From the IMG/VR virus record IMGVR_UViG_3300042565_001021, positions 91,046 to 155,045 of that record: a stretch of 64,000 bases of DNA; one strand, written 5' to 3'. The position numbers were made by a program, and so were the translations under genes. The notes beneath the pieces are model-generated. The model had not been told where the DNA came from. It did no database searches and saw nothing but the letters and a program-made list of their open reading frames with translations. Of this stretch, positions 8,127-14,964 are shown piece after piece (within the stretch, counting starts at the first letter, position 1; the number at the start of each line of letters is the position of its first letter). Origin of the DNA: a virus.

Positions 8127-8612
8127 TTAGGCTCCGCTGTAATCGATCGGAGGAGTAGCTGGTCCAGGAACCATAACAACAGTCTTAACGACCTTTGTTC
8201 CAGTTGAGTTAAACTTCTTGCCTGGTGGCACAAGAGCTTCGTCGAACGGGTAGAACGTCGAAGTTGCGTTATCTGTTGCTGCGCCTTCTTGTGTTCCGTT
8301 GTTGTAAGTCTTGCCGTCTTCCTTAAACATAACCTTTAGGTCATAAGCAGGATCGGTATTTGCGATGTCTCCGGTGTCGCCAACGCGGGACGGTGCTGCT
8401 GCCGCTGAGTCTAAAGCTACAACCTTAACGATTGTGGAATCGCCCAAATCTACAGTTGCACCTGCTGCAACAGTTACTTCGTCGAATGGGTAAAAAGTTG
8501 ATGTCGCGTTATCGACTGCTGTCCCTTCTTGAGTACCGTTGTTGTAGGTCTTGCCTTCGATCTTGAACATTACCTTTTCTGGTCCTGCGCTTCCATTTGT
8601 GTATGAGCTCAT
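8127..8612 (-). CDS. Virion-type protein with internal repeat
   Basis: The 161-residue protein contains the same unit twice: K-V-M-F-K-x-(E/D)-G-K-T-Y-N-N-G-T-Q-E-G near residues 14 and 94, each followed by DNATSTFYPFDE. Such duplicated beta domains are common in decoration or fibre proteins. A late promoter (ACTAAATA at 8652) and a terminator delimit a single-gene late transcript, which fits an abundant virion protein. The exact virion role is unknown. Confidence 0.65.
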   Translation of the reverse strand: MSSYTNGSAGPEKVMFKIEGKTYNNGTQEGTAVDNATSTFYPFDEVTVAAGATVDLGDSTIVKVVALDSAAAAPSRVGDTGDIANTDPAYDLKVMFKEDGKTYNNGTQEGAATDNATSTFYPFDEALVPPGKKFNSTGTKVVKTVVMVPGPATPPIDYSGA

Positions 8613-8721: not shown

Positions 8722-8916
8722 TTACAGCCATTTTAGCTTAAACATTAGGAATTCTGCTTCGGTTTTGAACGCAAAGTTTCGCATACCAACTCGCTTCCCA
8801 GATTGAGTAGCCGTACACCATTGTTCCATGTCATTCAATGTTGGCATTTGTGTATCGGAAGTGTCTATTTTAACCATGATGTAGTTTTCGGTGTATGCTA
8901 CTTCTTTAATTTTCAT
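8722..8916 (-). CDS. Tandem-array protein 1 (C-terminal F-x-L-x-W motif)
   Basis: The 64-residue protein ends FAFKTEAEFLMFKLKWL, the most diverged copy of the motif F-x-F-x-x-E-x-D-A-x-x-F-x-L-x-W found in its upstream neighbours. It also keeps the mid-protein W-C-T pattern (EQWCTA). It is the last gene of the array in the direction of transcription and its start overlaps the gene before it by 11 bases. Function unknown. Confidence 0.65.
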   Translation of the reverse strand: MKIKEVAYTENYIMVKIDTSDTQMPTLNDMEQWCTATQSGKRVGMRNFAFKTEAEFLMFKLKWL

Positions 8917-9292
8917 TTTTGCCCGACCAAATTAAAGCAAACCATACAGCATCTTTTTCTTGCGTGAAGCTAAACGTAACAGGTGCCCATCCTACAGCCT
9001 TCCATGAGCGTTTGCTTTTGATGTTATGATAACACCAGTCAACCCGTGGGTCCACATCAGTTACATACTTTACCATTTTTGGCACTGTAATATGGTACTT
9101 CATTTTCTGCTCGGCCCAGGTCAGAGCAAACAAAACCGCGTCTGCTTCTTTATAGAACCAGAATCGCACTGGTTGATAACACGAGTAATCCCACTCGGCA
9201 TAGTTCATTCGTTCAAGACACCAATGGATGCGCGGGTCCTGAGCTTCTAATCGAGTATCTGGCAAATCTATCATGTGGGAACACCTCTTCAT
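8906..9292 (-). CDS. Tandem-array protein 2, two motif copies
   Basis: With the ATG at 9292 (ATGA overlap), the 128-residue protein holds the array unit twice: HWCLERM followed by FWFYKEADAVLFALTWA, and DWCYHNI followed by FSFTQEKDAVWFALIWS. It looks like two neighbouring genes fused by loss of a stop and start. An alternative start at 9274 (MIDLPDTR) has a better ribosome site, AGAGG. Confidence 0.65.
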   Translation of the reverse strand: MKRCSHMIDLPDTRLEAQDPRIHWCLERMNYAEWDYSCYQPVRFWFYKEADAVLFALTWAEQKMKYHITVPKMVKYVTDVDPRVDWCYHNIKSKRSWKAVGWAPVTFSFTQEKDAVWFALIWSGKNEN

Positions 9293-9714
9293 GATCCACC
9301 CCACCGCAGCGCGAACCACATGAAATCTTTTTCGTCTTTGAACGCGAAGAACACGTAATCGAGGCCGCCGATATCGTTGAGGCAGTAACCGTTATATTCT
9401 GTTTTAATCACCCGGTGGACGTCATAGCGGTACTTGTGCTTTATATTTTCTTTACACCAGTTATCCATTTCATCTAATGCTTGTAACCAGTCGCCGTACT
9501 TTGTCCAAATGTCTCCGAGCGGATCTTCAAACGTGCGAACGTAAGGATACCCCTCATACCAATTTGTAATTTGGGTTGCTCGGTAAATGACATCGGGGTC
9601 AAACCTACGTGCGTATTCCTCTTCGGACTCGCACCCGTTCTTTTTTAGAAACCTTTTTCGTTTCTTCTCGTGATATTTTTTCGAGAGAGTTTCAAAGTAA
9701 CCTTTTAAGACCAT
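9289..9714 (-). CDS. Tandem-array protein 3
   Basis: The 141-residue product has the longest N-terminal part of the array, with a basic helix (KKYHEKKRKRFLKKNG). It ends VFFAFKDEKDFMWFALRWGGS. The WCKENI segment in the middle matches the W-C element of the others. The start codon lies inside the upstream gene's final Trp-Ser codons. Confidence 0.65.
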   Translation of the reverse strand: MVLKGYFETLSKKYHEKKRKRFLKKNGCESEEEYARRFDPDVIYRATQITNWYEGYPYVRTFEDPLGDIWTKYGDWLQALDEMDNWCKENIKHKYRYDVHRVIKTEYNGYCLNDIGGLDYVFFAFKDEKDFMWFALRWGGS

Positions 9715-9971
9715 TTTAGAGAAAACATGATTAGTTGCTGCTCGTCAACGAAACGAATCATAGCCTTTTTATTCAACTTAACGATTTCTGCTCCGCCGTA
9801 TTCTTCAAATAGCCAATCTCGAAAAGCTTTTCCTTCACCGTAATTAGAAGGAATATAGTACCTACCTATACCTAATCCGTGCGGCGGATCTATGTTGCGA
9901 CTCTCGTACCAATGGAGCAGCACCTTTGCGCCGATAGGGTTATACGGTATCATTGAATATTTTACGACCAT
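9705..9971 (-). CDS. Tandem-array protein 4
   Basis: An 88-residue protein with DWLFEEYGG and the C-terminal motif MIRFVDEQQLIMFSLKWS. Its ATG overlaps the upstream gene's CGA-TGG-TCG-TAA end, so the conserved Trp codon of one gene supplies the start of the next. Function unknown. Confidence 0.65.
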   Translation of the reverse strand: MVVKYSMIPYNPIGAKVLLHWYESRNIDPPHGLGIGRYYIPSNYGEGKAFRDWLFEEYGGAEIVKLNKKAMIRFVDEQQLIMFSLKWS

Positions 9972-10177
9972 CGCAGTAGAAACAGCATACGTTCTTTGTC
10001 ATCACGAAATCTAAATGCGTTAAACGAGAGTCTTACTCCGCAGTCGTTTTCTTTACACCAAATTTCAAGCTCGTCAAGCATAGTGCTCATTCGCACAGCT
10101 CTATCGCCTGCTACAGCAAACACAGAGATCTCAGAAACTCCGAGAGTGACAAACTCTAATTTTTTGCCGAACGACAT
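9962..10177 (-). CDS. Tandem-array protein 5
   Basis: A 71-residue protein with IWCKEND in the middle and FRFRDDKERMLFLLRWS at the end. The start lies one base after the stop of the zinc-ribbon gene (TAAAATG). It belongs to the same family as 9705 and 12207. Confidence 0.65.
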   Translation of the reverse strand: MSFGKKLEFVTLGVSEISVFAVAGDRAVRMSTMLDELEIWCKENDCGVRLSFNAFRFRDDKERMLFLLRWS

Positions 10178-10178
10178 T

Positions 10179-10466
10179 TTAGTGTAGCGTGTGAGTTTTA
10201 TACCCTTGAATCAGCACCTGGAGTCTCAGAAGCTCAGCTGTTACCTCGGGCGCAAGAGAAGCAATGGTTGCCTCGTGGATCCGAATCGCTTTCATGTTCT
10301 CGTCAAACTCGAGAAATGCCCCGCAGTAAAAGCACAGCGAAACATCGCCTGGTGCTGGGCCGCCCTGGCCTTCTTGCGAAGGAGAAGCAGCATCCAGCAT
10401 TGATTCACAGCAAGGGCAAGTGACCTCTGGCAATAATGTTACTTCTGGTTCAAAAGACGAAGTCAT
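10179..10466 (-). CDS. Zinc-ribbon protein
   Basis: Two Cys pairs, CPCC at residues 17-20 and CFYC at 45-48, are about 25 residues apart and form a zinc ribbon. The C-terminal helix is Leu-rich (ELLRLQVLIQG). Proteins like this often bind nucleic acid or a polymerase. The start overlaps the AAA+ gene by 17 bases, which suggests coupled expression. Confidence 0.6.
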   Translation of the reverse strand: MTSSFEPEVTLLPEVTCPCCESMLDAASPSQEGQGGPAPGDVSLCFYCGAFLEFDENMKAIRIHEATIASLAPEVTAELLRLQVLIQGYKTHTLH

Positions 10467-11571
10467 GGTATTTGCTCTTTTGCTTGGTAAAGGTAACAGT
10501 TGCGCCTTTGTCGTTGGAGTAAGTAAACGCTCCGGTTGCTGCGTCGATCTTCTTCAGATTCAGGTAAGTGAATTGGAAGTTTGCGCCTTCTGCGGGCAGC
10601 TTCGGATCTGTTGTAGATTTAGCAACAGCGGTGGCACCTTGAACCGATGGAGCATCTTCGTCGTCATCAGTACCGTAGTAGTTGATGTGGAAGCGATCCT
10701 TGGATAGCGGGTTGCTTTCCATAGTCTTCGGGTGGTAAATCCCTTCCGGTACATCGATACCGTTGATCTTCATTGTGATGTCGTAAACGCCGCCGTCGTC
10801 GGACTGTGGCTTTGCGTTCAGCATCTTCATTGCTTCTTGTGCTGTTTCACCGTAGCGGTTCATTTCTTCAACAAGCGACTTCAGCATGTCGAAGTTGAAT
10901 GCGCTGAACATAGAGCTAATGCGGCAGATGTTTTCGATCTGCTCTTTGTTCTTGAGGTTCTCTTCGCAGTATTCGGTAATGAATTCAGTTTCGAGTCCGT
11001 GGAAATCAAGCATGTAAAAGATTCGACCTGGACGGTTGCGCATGTGGGAATCAATGCGCCACTTGTCGTTACAGGTGAGCACGAACAGTTTTTTACTTGG
11101 GAATACGCCGTCGAGCAGTGTCAGGATAGCGGATTGTTCGTCGGCGTCGTAGACCTTTTCGAACTCGTCGAACAGGATCATACAAGGCTGTTGAATGCTT
11201 TGGATTAGTGTGTTGAACTTTTCGCCGTTCCATGCGGTGTTGATGATAATAGTTGGCATGTCTTGCGCAGCACAAGCGATAGAAAGAGACTTTGCGAGCA
11301 GCGTCTTGCCGGAACCTTTTTCGCCTGTTAGCAGAACACCGGTCGTCGCTGGCCGGTCGTTGAATGTGTTCATGATGCGTTCTGTGTGACGCAGGGTGTC
11401 GCCGTACACTTTGTGCTTCAGTTCGAAGTCGTCAATGGACTCGAAGTAGAAGTTTTCGTACTGGTCCATTTTAATTGTGTAGTTGCCGGGAGGCAGGGCC
11501 GGAGTTAGGTTTAGAACCTCGTCGTCATAAGGAACAAAAGTGTTTCCGGATTTCCTAAATTGGGTAGCCAT
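10450..11571 (-). CDS. AAA+ ATPase
   Basis: The 373-residue protein has Walker A GEKGSGKT at residues 83-90, Walker B MILFDEFE at 131-138, sensor 1 TCN at 166-168 and an Arg-rich RNRPGR at 178-183 as likely arginine finger. The C-terminal 120 residues form a separate domain that I do not recognise. The layout fits a single-ring remodelling ATPase such as the MoxR or BCS1 types. It is the first gene behind the promoter at 11598. Confidence 0.85.
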   Translation of the reverse strand: MATQFRKSGNTFVPYDDEVLNLTPALPPGNYTIKMDQYENFYFESIDDFELKHKVYGDTLRHTERIMNTFNDRPATTGVLLTGEKGSGKTLLAKSLSIACAAQDMPTIIINTAWNGEKFNTLIQSIQQPCMILFDEFEKVYDADEQSAILTLLDGVFPSKKLFVLTCNDKWRIDSHMRNRPGRIFYMLDFHGLETEFITEYCEENLKNKEQIENICRISSMFSAFNFDMLKSLVEEMNRYGETAQEAMKMLNAKPQSDDGGVYDITMKINGIDVPEGIYHPKTMESNPLSKDRFHINYYGTDDDEDAPSVQGATAVAKSTTDPKLPAEGANFQFTYLNLKKIDAATGAFTYSNDKGATVTFTKQKSKYHDFVF

Positions 11572-11597
11572 TTGTCGCTTTCTTTAAATGATAAAAC

Positions 11598-11626
11598 ATT
11601 ATATGCTACTTTGTGTTTTTGAGCAA
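11598..11626 (-). promoter_or_regulatory. Early sigma70-type promoter for AAA+ gene
   Basis: Minus strand TTGCTC (11621-11626), 17 bases, TATAAT (11598-11603), about 25 bases before the ATG. Confidence 0.7.
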
Positions 11627-11635
11627 GTATTTTGG

Positions 11636-11893
11636 TTATCGCGGTCCGGTGCTTCCCGTTCCTGTATCAAATGGCCATCTGGCTCGGGGAGCTTTATCTA
11701 ACAAGTGCCCAGCAAGTAACAGGAACCAAGCTAAATCTTTTTCATTCGCAAAATAAAACTCGTCGTTGTTTGTCCTTGACCAACGGACATATTCTAAGCC
11801 AAAATGATCCTGGCAGATTTTAGTCACTTCGAAAAAGTGCGCCCCGTAAGTGTTTGGCGCTTTGAACCAGTGTTCGAAAATTACTTCTTTCAT
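11636..11893 (-). CDS. Tandem-array protein 6
   Basis: The 85-residue protein has ICQDHFGLEYVRW and then FYFANEKDLAWFLLLAGHLLDKAP, so the terminal Trp of the family motif is replaced by Ala-Gly and the protein runs on for about 20 residues. It shares this variant with the next gene (WFALTGSHLSNT). Start overlaps the upstream stop by ATGA. Confidence 0.6.
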   Translation of the reverse strand: MKEVIFEHWFKAPNTYGAHFFEVTKICQDHFGLEYVRWSRTNNDEFYFANEKDLAWFLLLAGHLLDKAPRARWPFDTGTGSTGPR

Positions 11894-12207
11894 TTCTTTA
11901 GCGGAATGTAAGGAGCGTAGAATGCTGCTCCCTCATAACCAACCATTAAAGAAGACGTGTTGGACAGATGGCTACCTGTCAGGGCAAACCAGGTTATGTC
12001 CTTCTTGTAGCGAAACTGGAGAACACCACCAAATGTTAGCCTCCAGTTGCCGTGGTTGTCTCTTGTCTTTTTAGTAGCGTGGTTGTAGGATGTGCTGTGC
12101 TCTGGTCCAAAATGCTGAGTACATAACTGCCGTACTTCCTCACGCTTGTACGAGTACCTGCCTTCAGCTTCGTACCATGATACTTTAGTTTTAGTTTTCT
12201 TGCTCAT
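11890..12207 (-). CDS. Tandem-array protein 7
   Basis: I chose the ATG at 12207, which shares one base with the upstream stop (TAATG), giving 105 residues. It has LCTQHFGPEH and LQFRYKKDITWFALTGSHLSNT, the same C-terminal variant as the 11636 gene, so these two are sister copies. Basic N-terminus. Confidence 0.6.
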   Translation of the reverse strand: MSKKTKTKVSWYEAEGRYSYKREEVRQLCTQHFGPEHSTSYNHATKKTRDNHGNWRLTFGGVLQFRYKKDITWFALTGSHLSNTSSLMVGYEGAAFYAPYIPLKK

Positions 12208-12428
12208 TATGACCACCTCAGCAAAAACATTTCACGATCCTCGTCGCGCTCAAAGTATATCTGACCAAAAATGTTGTCAAAGAAATAACTTCCTATGCCT
12301 TCATATTCTTCTAACCAGTCCAACTGCCGCAAGACATTCTCGTCTTTTCTCGGATCCCATAATGCTGCCCCGCTGTTAATAACAGGTTGCCAGTCGGTGC
12401 CTATCATTCCGTTTAGTTCTCGTCTCAT
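12207..12428 (-). CDS. Tandem-array protein 8
   Basis: A close copy of the next gene: NGMIGTDWQPV, WLEEYEGIGSYFFD and IYFERDEDREMFLLRWS. The start is taken at ATG 12428 (ATGA overlap); ATG 12434 is also in frame. The pair looks like a recent duplication. Confidence 0.65.
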   Translation of the reverse strand: MRRELNGMIGTDWQPVINSGAALWDPRKDENVLRQLDWLEEYEGIGSYFFDNIFGQIYFERDEDREMFLLRWS

Positions 12429-12670
12429 GACCATTTCAGTAAAAACATTTCACGATCTTCGTCGCGTTCAAAGTAATACAGCTTGAAATGCGGATCGGAA
12501 TAGTATTTTCCTAACCCTTCATACTCAGCTAGCCATATTTCAATCTGAATACCTTCAAACGAAATTCCGCTAAGATAGTCAAAGTCAATTAGCTCTCTTT
12601 CGAGATTCACGCACTGCCACTCGGTGCCAATCATCCCGTTAGTTTCGCGTTCCACTGCTACTCCAACCAT
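12425..12670 (-). CDS. Tandem-array protein 9
   Basis: An 81-residue protein with NGMIGTEWQCV, WLAEYEGLGKYYSD and YYFERDEDREMFLLKWS. It differs from the 12207 copy mainly by an insert before the WLAEYEG segment. The start codon overlaps the upstream gene's TGG-TTG-GAG-TAG end. Confidence 0.65.
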   Translation of the reverse strand: MVGVAVERETNGMIGTEWQCVNLERELIDFDYLSGISFEGIQIEIWLAEYEGLGKYYSDPHFKLYYFERDEDREMFLLKWS

Positions 12671-12882
12671 AGTAATGAAAACATCATAGCATCCTTTTCG
12701 TCAGCAAAGTAATAAGTGGTTATCCAGTCCTCTTTGTTGCGTGACGCCGATTCATTGACGACAAACTTACCCCTGCCCACTACGTTACAAGCCCAGGCAT
12801 ATCTATCTTTAGGAGCACCTGGACCAGATCGTTTGCCAGAGTTCCCTTGAAGTTTTACCGGGTAAGGAAATTCAACTTTCAT
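12658..12882 (-). CDS. Tandem-array protein 10
   Basis: With the ATG at 12882 (ATGA overlap), a 74-residue protein starting MKVEFPYPVKL. It has WACNVVGRGKF in the middle and YYFADEKDAMMFSLLWLE at the end. The central Gly and the E-x-D-A core fit the family. Confidence 0.65.
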   Translation of the reverse strand: MKVEFPYPVKLQGNSGKRSGPGAPKDRYAWACNVVGRGKFVVNESASRNKEDWITTYYFADEKDAMMFSLLWLE

Positions 12883-13091
12883 GTATTTCCCCATTTAAGA
12901 GCAAACATAACAGCGTCTTTCTCTTGTTGGAACAAGTATTCGCTGCGACAAAACCCTCCGGAAACACAGTCCCACTCTACTTCTTTTTTACCTAAGTGTT
13001 TCCTAGCCCAGGCAATCCGCTCCGATCCAATCCGCCCGTTTTTAACTATAATAGAGAACGGATAATAAGTTTTTTGTTTAAGAGTTGTCAT
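12879..13091 (-). CDS. Tandem-array protein 11
   Basis: From ATG 13091 (shares a base with the upstream stop), 70 residues: MTTLKQKTYYPF, WARKHLGKKEVEWDC and YLFQQEKDAVMFALKWGNT. A clear family member with the full W-x(4)-G and E-x-D-A-x-x-F-A-L-x-W pattern. Confidence 0.65.
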   Translation of the reverse strand: MTTLKQKTYYPFSIIVKNGRIGSERIAWARKHLGKKEVEWDCVSGGFCRSEYLFQQEKDAVMFALKWGNT

Positions 13092-13282
13092 TATGCCCAC
13101 CTCAACGCAAACAGCACGGCATCTTGTTCGTTGTAGAATACAAATGTTTTGTTAGCATCAAAATACCACGTAGACGGCGACGGCCGTCCAAACTGATCAA
13201 ACGCCCAAGCCCAGCATTCTAAAATACCGTCTCTCTCGCGATACATGCGGCGTTTCTCATCGCTTATAGTAAATTTATTCAT
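13091..13282 (-). CDS. Tandem-array protein 12
   Basis: From ATG 13282 (ATGA overlap), 63 residues: MNKFTISDEKRRMY, WAFDQFGRPSPSTW and FVFYNEQDAVLFALRWA. Almost nothing but the family unit, so it shows the minimal domain. Confidence 0.65.
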   Translation of the reverse strand: MNKFTISDEKRRMYRERDGILECWAWAFDQFGRPSPSTWYFDANKTFVFYNEQDAVLFALRWA

Positions 13283-13488
13283 TTTACCCACCTTAACGCA
13301 AACAGCATGGCGTCTTTCTCATCTCTAAACGCATAAAGTCCAGAATAACAACACTTCCATCGTTCGGGCACGTCGCCGAACATTTCCATCGTCCACTTTA
13401 TTCTTTCTTGGTCTGGATTCGTATCGCAGTGAACAGCGTAAGGAAACTTAAAACTGTCTGGAAGAAGGTCGAGTTCGTCAGTTTTCAT
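13279..13488 (-). CDS. Tandem-array protein 13
   Basis: A 69-residue protein with KWTMEMFGDVPERWKCC and YAFRDEKDAMLFALRWVK. The start overlaps the upstream stop by ATGA. N-terminal 15 residues are acidic and unrelated to the other copies. Confidence 0.65.
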   Translation of the reverse strand: MKTDELDLLPDSFKFPYAVHCDTNPDQERIKWTMEMFGDVPERWKCCYSGLYAFRDEKDAMLFALRWVK

Positions 13489-13709
13489 TTAACCCACCTC
13501 AGAGCGAACAGAACAGCGTCTGATTCTTTTTCAAAGGAAAACGTAAGTGGCCCGTATCCTGTGTCTTCGTCTTCATGGGTGCTAGTCATTCGTCCGGTTA
13601 TGTTCTTTGCTACCCAGCAAGCAGACCCTTGCATAACGCATTCGGTCCAGTTGTCAACAATGACGTTATACGGATACGGTGCCCATGGCAATTTTCTGTT
13701 CACAGCCAT
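13485..13709 (-). CDS. Tandem-array protein 14
   Basis: A 74-residue protein with WVAKNITGRM and FSFEKESDAVLFALRWVK. It is the first array gene after the TOPRIM gene, whose last codons (AAA-TGG-CTG-TGA) contain its ATG. The TOPRIM protein itself ends LFAKWL, a possible remnant of the same motif. Confidence 0.65.
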   Translation of the reverse strand: MAVNRKLPWAPYPYNVIVDNWTECVMQGSACWVAKNITGRMTSTHEDEDTGYGPLTFSFEKESDAVLFALRWVK

Positions 13710-14236
13710 TTTGCGAACAGCTCCTTAAATTCTTCTTCGGTTAGGTCACCTACGTCCTTGCCTTCCGGCAGGAACACGCATTCAGCACCGTACTTAGCAA
13801 GCTTCTTACCTGCTGCGTCGCCCTGAACACAAGCTACCTTCCGCTGCGGCATCCCCATCAGCCAACCAGTTAGATGCTTTGGGTTGTTGCCCATTACAGC
13901 AACAGCAGGCAGACCGTGCCAGTGTAGCCGAGCAGCGTCAAACACGCCTTCGGTCAGGAACAGAAACTTGTCCGTCCAGCGTACAGTTTCGAGACCCCAC
14001 ACAGCCAGGTGAGCGTCTTTGCTTGCGCAAGGCTTGGTTACCCAGCTAAAGTATTTCTGTAGCTTTGGGTCGCCTACTTCCTTCTTAGGCTGTGACGGAG
14101 AATACGTCTGAAACCCAACTGCCTGCCCAGATAAATTCCATAACATCACAGTCATCATTTTATCTGTCACCGTAAGGCTACTATACCGCTGCGGGTCAAA
14201 ATAACGACTACGTAGATGAGTTAGCATTTTATCCAT
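13700..14236 (-). CDS. TOPRIM-domain protein
   Basis: The central FLFLTEGVFDAARLHWHGLPAV and the following VACVQGDAAGKK give the Glu and the Asp-containing strand of a TOPRIM fold, as in primases. The primase at 52216 has the related CEGVFDALSIDAVAV. Without a zinc ribbon this may be a primase fragment or an OLD-like nuclease domain. I use ATG 14236 (MDKMLTHLRS), which falls at the expected transcription start of the promoter at 14243, so the message would be leaderless. Confidence 0.75.
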   Translation of the reverse strand: MDKMLTHLRSRYFDPQRYSSLTVTDKMMTVMLWNLSGQAVGFQTYSPSQPKKEVGDPKLQKYFSWVTKPCASKDAHLAVWGLETVRWTDKFLFLTEGVFDAARLHWHGLPAVAVMGNNPKHLTGWLMGMPQRKVACVQGDAAGKKLAKYGAECVFLPEGKDVGDLTEEEFKELFAKWL

Positions 14237-14242
14237 GTTTGT

Positions 14243-14271
14243 ATTATACATGAAAATTTACTAAATGTCAA
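14243..14271 (-). promoter_or_regulatory. Early sigma70-type promoter, leaderless start
   Basis: Minus strand TTGACA (14266-14271), 17 bases, TATAAT (14243-14248): both boxes perfect. Only six bases separate the -10 box from ATG 14236. Confidence 0.85.
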
Positions 14272-14346: not shown

Positions 14347-14964
14347 ATGTATATTTATACTTCAGAACAAGTAAGACCATATGTTTATATGGGAATTCAT
14401 AAAGTAACCGGTGAGATTTACATAGGTTATCGTGAAGCAAACTCAACTCCGTCACACCTTGATATCTTCGAATATCGGACTTCGTCTAAGATAGTTAAAC
14501 CGAAGTTTGATGATTATACCTGGTATATAGTAGCAGAGTTCATAACAGGTGATGCGGCTTATGACTTTGAACAACAATTGATATTTGAAAATTGGGATAG
14601 TCCTCTTCTGTTAAACAGAAGCTGTCAATTTGGTCATCAGAAAAGATTTAAGTGTTCAAATAAAGGAAGAAAACAATCAGACAGTCATATCGCAAAGCTG
14701 ACTGAGATTCGTAAAAATAGGACACTTCCGGCTGATTTCGGCGCAAAGGTCTCGGCTGGTCTCAAAGGAAAACCGAAATCCGAAGAGCATAAGATAAAAA
14801 CAGGTAATGCCTTTCGAGGGATCCCTCGAACTGAAGAAACTAAGCAAAAAATTAAAGAGAAAAGAGCTCTTCAGGTAATAACACATGAATCAAGAATTAA
14901 AGCCGCAGCGACCCGAGCAAGAAACTTAGCATTGAAAAGTCAACCAAAAGAAATGGGCCCATAA
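14347..14964 (+). CDS. GIY-YIG homing endonuclease
   Basis: The GIY-YIG domain opens with PYVYMGIHKVTGEIYIGYREAN, followed by a region with E-F and the Glu of FEQQLIFENW. The C-terminal half is basic with NUMOD-like segments (SDSHIAKLTEIRK, SEEHKIKTGNAF, TEETKQKIKEK). AAGGAG lies ten bases before the ATG. It stands alone on the plus strand between two minus-strand genes, as expected for a mobile free-standing endonuclease. Confidence 0.9.
   Translation: MYIYTSEQVRPYVYMGIHKVTGEIYIGYREANSTPSHLDIFEYRTSSKIVKPKFDDYTWYIVAEFITGDAAYDFEQQLIFENWDSPLLLNRSCQFGHQKRFKCSNKGRKQSDSHIAKLTEIRKNRTLPADFGAKVSAGLKGKPKSEEHKIKTGNAFRGIPRTEETKQKIKEKRALQVITHESRIKAAATRARNLALKSQPKEMGP

Follow-up and report, generated by a model that had tools for sequence, protein, structure and literature searches.

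What is encoded by a run of small overlapping genes in a large-phage genome that end in variants of one tryptophan-containing motif, and what might such genes be for? The question is raised by a 64-kb stretch of viral DNA, hereafter the window, comprising bases 91046-155045 of the 155-kb IMG/VR virus record IMGVR_UViG_3300042565_001021. An earlier note on its letters had pointed to fourteen small paralogous genes ending in this motif, and had suggested that they diversify fast as inhibitors of host defences or as ligands of an AAA+ ATPase encoded among them. Using the list of open reading frames (ORFs) and a motif scan, we found all fourteen overlapping genes with fifteen units between positions 8722 and 13709 on the minus strand, and a six-frame regular-expression scan places the motif at these fifteen positions, all on that strand, and nowhere else in the window. 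The gene that the note had described as holding two units (8906-9319) does so, and the array is, as the note had it, interrupted only by the AAA+ gene (10450-11571) and a zinc-ribbon-like gene (10179-10466). The motif ending is present in fifteen copies, but two genes (11890-12216 and 11636-11893) have degenerate ends without the final tryptophan. The fourteen genes belong to a single paralogous family, large and previously unnamed, of small modular proteins from T4-type large phages. These genes are stacked through overlapping junctions, and some members of the family carry imitations of parts of the phage major capsid protein (MCP).

The unit genes encode a variable N-terminal part followed by a constant C-terminal domain, here called the unit, which ends in F-x-L-[RK]-W-x and has a consensus of ~45 residues (DEIEEWCEENFGGGPYTFRWKIDNGGVTFYFKDEKDATLFLLRWS). 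A profile built from the units recovers all those of the window and no reversed ORF at E 0.01. Conservation is highest at W (96%), F (88%), F (96%), L (89%) and the terminal W (100%); among polar positions, only D (70%), E (50-60%) and [RK] (93%) are well conserved. AlphaFold2 predicts a beta-alpha-beta-beta-alpha fold for gene 2 (predicted local distance difference test, pLDDT, 84.6; predicted template modelling score, pTM, 0.70), and the second unit of gene 13 is predicted to have the same order of elements (pLDDT above 90 for the most part). The spacing of the conserved residues suggests a hydrophobic core and helix capping, not an active site. Because the conserved positions are mainly hydrophobic fold positions, with no conserved polar set resembling an active site, we infer that the unit is a non-enzymatic binding scaffold.

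Searches for relatives of the unit gave no credible profile match in Pfam, PHROGs, NCBIfam or PADLOC. Neither a sequence search of the PDB (best E 0.05) nor a Foldseek fold search of the same database (best E 0.55 for a single unit and 0.14 for the two-unit model) revealed a relative, and the nearest structures in BFVD are those of uncharacterised proteins encoded by uncultured phages. Isoelectric points are widely spread (median 5.2-5.7), without a charge signature, and we found no description of the family in open-access papers; where an annotation of unit genes was seen, it reads 'hypothetical protein'. The profile search and the modelling of a lone unit, both proposed in the earlier note, thus return one family that is not a known domain and a fold without a PDB match. 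The outcome that the note had held to speak against it, a well-known single-copy domain with no array elsewhere, is not what we see, as arrays recur in other phages.

Profile searches, run on records many of which are fragments, yielded 374 units from 121 loci and none in reversed ORFs, with units present in most of the large T4-type phage records tested. The present record has 21 profile matches, records G001, G002 and G010 have 26, 19 and 33, respectively, and the 561-kb record G003 has at least 126. Read piecewise, G003 contains at least 162 units at E 1e-3, and a profile of its own raises this to 212, none of them reversed, in 36 places, the largest of which packs 76 copies into 28.5 kb. 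The capsid protein of G003 is 84% identical to that of the cultured Sinorhizobium phage Phosso, which encodes 34 units; other cultured carriers are Agrobacterium phage Atu_ph07 (five units) and the Pseudomonas phages PA5oct and Paride (three each). These four were reached by profiles only, single-sequence tblastn against cultured phages having given no match, and the profiles found no units in T4, P-SSM2, HTVC008M, phage G, CcrColossus, 121Q, OC, Tunturi_3 or Pumpernickel. The record that contains the window has a second array ~21-23 kb before it (G000:68467-70163, equivalent to L012:8467-10163), in which five units are confident and a further two or three are divergent. A strict DNA pattern for the gene junctions was also run against IMG/VR; of the 21 stretches that it returned, one is credible and belongs to a genome already known to have an array, and we rejected the other 20, whose loci have no units, as chance matches. 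One pattern scan of bacterial genomes, not a sensitive one, confirmed no unit.

The manner in which these genes are joined is as characteristic as the unit itself. They run head to tail, overlapping by a few bases, and the next gene's ATG most commonly begins 5 bases downstream of the position where the last W codon starts, e.g. AGGTGGnnATGA. The mechanically assigned start codons of several unit genes fall inside the last codons of the preceding gene, the likely ATG being 3-9 codons downstream. Among genes with an ATG closely after the W codon, the preceding arginine codon is AGG in 90 of 117 cases (77%), versus 82 of 1076 arginine codons (8%) elsewhere in the same ORFs (Fisher p ~5e-62), a bias that points to selection at the RNA level for a Shine-Dalgarno site serving the next gene. 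Thus, the AGGTGG that encodes the final Arg-Trp also appears to serve the following, overlapping gene as its ribosome-binding site, which would allow the genes to be chained like cassettes. We considered and rejected the idea that the W ending is a mere by-product of this site: where no ATG follows, the W-x ending is still kept in 20 of 24 genes, whereas the AGG bias is lost (one of seven, these being the only R-W cases available). The C-terminal W is therefore kept for the protein.

The first indication of what some N-terminal parts are came from a Gp23 profile search of this phage, whose match is not a capsid gene but a 104-amino-acid (aa) ORF in the second array, with the gp23 N-arm motif at its start and a unit-like end (...LLKLKWA). 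Matches to Pfam Gp23 (PF07068) above the curated cut-off of 24.4 bits occur at loci L124 (47 bits) and L102 (26 bits) as well as at L012, and N-arm heads like that of L012 are found at many further loci. An N-arm profile trained on genuine MCPs only retrieves 19 short ORFs, almost all of them with the unit tail at their end, and none among reversed ORFs. So as not to favour any family, we also compared the 145 non-redundant units that have the longest N-termini with the whole of PHROGs and of Pfam (E 1e-3); the major capsid protein was the only family matched, by 11 of the 145. At least three segments of gp23 serve as heads, namely the N-terminal arm, an internal segment and a C-terminal one, the matches covering only short stretches of PF07068 (2-62, 129-190 or 305-354 of 376). 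The heads thus amount to ~25-60 gp23 residues, as against ~400 in a full HK97-type capsid protein, and are fragments rather than complete capsid proteins. The internal segment 129-190 is represented by the heads of G036 (own profile E 1.1e-8), whose profile also links the frequent 'LAxEIxxEIDxEI' heads to gp23 (hhalign P 5.8e-6; terminase control negative), and the segment 305-354 by the head of Phosso protein XYS97328.1. The N-arm heads align to T4 gp23 residues ~90-127, where we take the Gol segment of that protein to lie; the exact coordinates of Gol, and with them its residue-level placement on the heads, are in part our assumption.

Five head-bearing genomes have an intact MCP gene elsewhere, and in the subfamily where it could be measured the ratio of non-synonymous to synonymous polymorphism (pN/pS) is 0.29 for the heads and 0.22 for the unit, indicating purifying selection. 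In the core region the heads are 32-67% identical to jumbo-phage MCPs, the MCP of the same phage being no closer, while those MCPs are 84-100% identical among themselves over the same core. A capsid gene split by an intron or insertion was accordingly rejected as the source of the heads, given the intact MCP elsewhere and heads that are diverged and under purifying selection. We also used BLAST to ask whether all heads of the 561-kb phage and of the present one stem from their own genome; there was no general pattern, and the capsid origin emerged only with profiles. A further class of heads contains a P-loop (GRQTGKS and variants) with a weak resemblance to terminase (hhalign probability 49%). 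The tail FSRAxWY...FGPHPxxPDAWSRW... is found behind both capsid and P-loop heads, and heads are therefore exchangeable. Gene 12 of the window has a long head of its own type, similar heads being present on units of other phages (L102, L063), and its unit region is 56% identical over 59 aa to L119:7405-7902. Separately, capsid-related segments occur in ORFs lacking the unit: a 201-aa ORF at L208 (G010:276000-282000) has a Gp23 N-arm fragment (51 bits) without the unit ending and represents another kind of capsid-fragment gene, and a 113-aa ORF of the present phage (L011:10664-11002, minus strand) weakly matches gp23 segment 162-216 (E 0.007).

The arrays do not all appear to have grown in the same way. 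In the present phage, 16 of 20 units are closest to units in other phages, paralogues being nearer each other in the remaining four, and genes 6 and 7 are the only clear recent duplicate pair (69% identity over 36 aa). The fast diversification envisaged by the earlier note is thus not supported for this array. The 561-kb phage differs: of 33 units sampled there, 31 have their closest relative among the paralogues of that phage.

What, then, could such proteins do? We infer a role in conflict, and tentatively, with less than even confidence, propose that they are capsid-protein mimics or decoys built on a generic binding scaffold. Two known systems in which bacteria recognize capsid protein provide a context. 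The Gol peptide, 29 residues from the first quarter of gp23 that are described as the best-conserved part of this protein, binds EF-Tu and sets off the suicide protease Lit (PMC3014915), and capsid protein directly triggers CapRel (PMC9712102). Activators of the Gol kind bind EF-Tu at domains II/III. Under our proposal the unit would be the generic, non-enzymatic scaffold, while the variable N-terminal part would set what each protein imitates or binds. Capsid-like members would then act as decoys or competitors for capsid-recognising factors of the host or of rival phages, e.g. EF-Tu/Lit and CapRel-type sensors, the remaining members would offer the same scaffold with other specificities, and the array as a whole would serve as an accessory arsenal in conflict, its genes being translated in coupled fashion as a single operon. 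Extended to the family, this would amount to a modular decoy system of T4-type large phages, with up to hundreds of stackable genes, some imitating different capsid segments and blunting the factors by which bacteria or rival phages recognise capsids, and with each conserved protein end encoding the ribosome-binding site of the next gene; judged from sequence, we regard this fuller picture as possible but somewhat doubtful. More generally, the capsid-like heads of some members suggest that large phages use these chained proteins as decoys or docking parts. The earlier idea that the array proteins inhibit host defences is likewise plausible, and the capsid imitations of other family members lend it some indirect support; scans with Pfam, PHROGs and PADLOC profiles recognised no known defence inhibitor among the unit genes. 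Two considerations weigh against the decoy proposal. None of the units in the window has a recognisable capsid head, and such heads are a minority elsewhere (11 of the 145 longest). Further, as the Gol peptide activates Lit, a faithful Gol mimic could harm the phage unless activation has been lost.

The chief competing explanation is that the units act on the phage's own capsid, head-bearing members docking into the gp23 lattice or binding nascent gp23 as assembly cofactors, internal head proteins or EF-Tu-dependent folding aids, with other units serving other virion or assembly partners. It would account for heads that derive from the capsid protein only and keep its strongly conserved N-arm pattern, and for the fact that every family host tested with an MCP match is a gp23-type phage; contacts between Gol and EF-Tu are reported to have been suggested to aid the translation or folding of gp23 (PMC3014915). 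Yet related phages differ in copy number from 3 to over 160, which is unlike an assembly component, and the heads have diverged to about half identity while the MCPs hardly vary. The three unit genes of PA5oct also lack the note of detection by electrospray-ionization tandem mass spectrometry (ESI-MS/MS) seen on detected neighbours, which speaks weakly in the same direction, small proteins being easily missed. On balance, we consider action on the own capsid rather unlikely.

That the heads resemble no MCP in particular, not even the own one, would also suit weapons against co-infecting T4-like phages, in which fragments of capsid protein, and possibly of terminase, act as dominant-negative poisons that block packaging or head assembly in the rival. 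As they come from the MCP region that is most conserved, such fragments would affect many relatives, and the GRQ-x-GKS P-loop heads weakly resemble the terminase Walker A region. Such poisons would, however, threaten the own capsid too unless divergence protects it, and the terminase link is weak (see above). We hold this explanation to be improbable. Finally, the units could be largely selfish or neutral cassettes without a common function, whose self-contained 3' end (coding motif, ribosome-binding site and overlapping start) eases insertion and retention. Cassette-like junctions and the very uneven copy number fit this description. The fold, however, is strongly conserved although the sequences diverge, heads and unit are under purifying selection in the tested subfamily, and capsid fragments have been recruited specifically and nothing else; these points make it quite improbable. 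We regard the decoy proposal as the best explanation.

The remaining idea of the earlier note makes the units ligands, or more broadly adaptors, of the AAA+ ATPase. In its favour, that gene lies within the array of the window, and in the close relatives L014 and L015 it is ~2 kb away from the arrays. The gene belongs to phrog_2376, which is common in phages, but no match to it was found in G003 (at least 126 units) or G010 (33 units), the most unit-rich records among those tested. In G008, G009 and Atu_ph07 it lies far from the units, and most of the fetched loci with AAA+ homologues have no unit nearby. The ligand idea is largely refuted because unit-rich genomes have no such ATPase, and we consider it highly unlikely. 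The closest cultured AAA+ homologue (50% identity) is that of Microbacterium phage Pumpernickel (L094), where it is situated inside a large tRNA cluster with no unit near it.

The features of the array and the units with P-loop heads are collected below.

Genes of the array (window positions) and units with P-loop heads elsewhere. HMM, hidden Markov model.
Feature	Position	Strand	Observations
Unit gene 1	13485..13709	-	74 aa, ends FSFEKESDAVLFALRWVK; unit HMM E 2.5e-19; 4-nt overlap with gene 2
Unit gene 2	13279..13488	-	69 aa, ends YAFRDEKDAMLFALRWVK; motif and unit HMM; AlphaFold2 pLDDT 84.6, pTM 0.70
Unit gene 3	13091..13291	-	likely start ATG 13282, AGGTGG of gene 2 just upstream; motif and unit HMM
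Unit gene 4	12879..13100	-	likely start ATG 13091; motif and unit HMM
Unit gene 5	12658..12894	-	motif and unit HMM
Unit gene 6	12425..12670	-	recent duplicate of gene 7, 69% over 36 aa; motif and unit HMM
Unit gene 7	12207..12434	-	recent duplicate of gene 6; motif and unit HMM
Unit gene 8	11890..12216	-	degenerate end FALTGSHL, no terminal W; unit HMM E 7.8e-13
Unit gene 9	11636..11893	-	degenerate end FLLLAGHL, no terminal W; unit HMM E 2.8e-14
AAA+ ATPase	10450..11571	-	neighbour gene; phrog_2376 E 8e-94, Pfam AAA
Zinc-ribbon-like small protein	10179..10466	-	neighbour gene; two CxxC pairs; no Pfam family
Unit gene 10	9962..10177	-	motif and unit HMM
Unit gene 11	9705..9971	-	motif and unit HMM
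Unit gene 12	9289..9714	-	141 aa; own 80-aa N-terminal head; motif and unit HMM
Unit gene 13	8906..9319	-	two units, likely start ATG 9292; motif and unit HMM; second unit modelled
Unit gene 14	8722..8916	-	motif and unit HMM
P-loop-head units	L124:5106-5576, L117:9112-9516, L049:9816-10211, L229, L234, L237, L256, L257		same tail as capsid heads

The genes flanking the array are of other kinds. Just downstream lies a 161-aa protein (8127-8612, minus strand) of two near-identical halves, in which VMFKxxGKTYNNGTQEGxAxDNATSTFYPFDE is repeated, with no Pfam family. Directly upstream, and overlapping the array, is a gene for a small Toprim-like protein with weak Pfam Toprim matches (13700-14251, minus strand), and beyond it on the opposite strand a GIY-YIG-like ORF, possibly a homing endonuclease, with a weak NUMOD3 match (14347-14964, plus strand; E 0.059).

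Should these indications about the family hold, a single domain without a name would account for several percent of some giant-phage genomes and for a sizeable share of the genes annotated there as 'hypothetical', and a natural collection of capsid mimics would offer a direct route to learning which capsid regions are sensed by bacteria and what the response of the phages is. The locking of a protein motif and a ribosome-binding site into the same codons would yield genes that can be stacked, and the cultured members (Phosso, Atu_ph07, PA5oct and Paride) make the family testable now.

The closest comparison that we found is the lineage-specific expansion of a zinc ribbon to ~35 copies in Bacillus phage G (PMC7824862), which is likewise a massive increase in copy number of one small domain in a jumbo phage. 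The units differ from it in having another fold without a metal site, in reaching more copies and occurring in many phages, and in their capsid-fragment heads and coding-embedded ribosome-binding sites. The arrays also resemble the anti-defence islands of phages, and small host-takeover proteins generally, in being operons of small, divergent, accessory genes, but the known anti-defence islands are mixtures of unrelated proteins, whereas the unit arrays have one fold throughout. With the Gol-Lit-EF-Tu exclusion system of T4 the parallel lies in the heads themselves, which reproduce the N-arm region of gp23 (T4 ~90-127) where Gol is understood to be located. There, however, Gol is an activator within the capsid protein with no separate small gene, whereas the heads described here are fused to an unrelated C-terminal unit.

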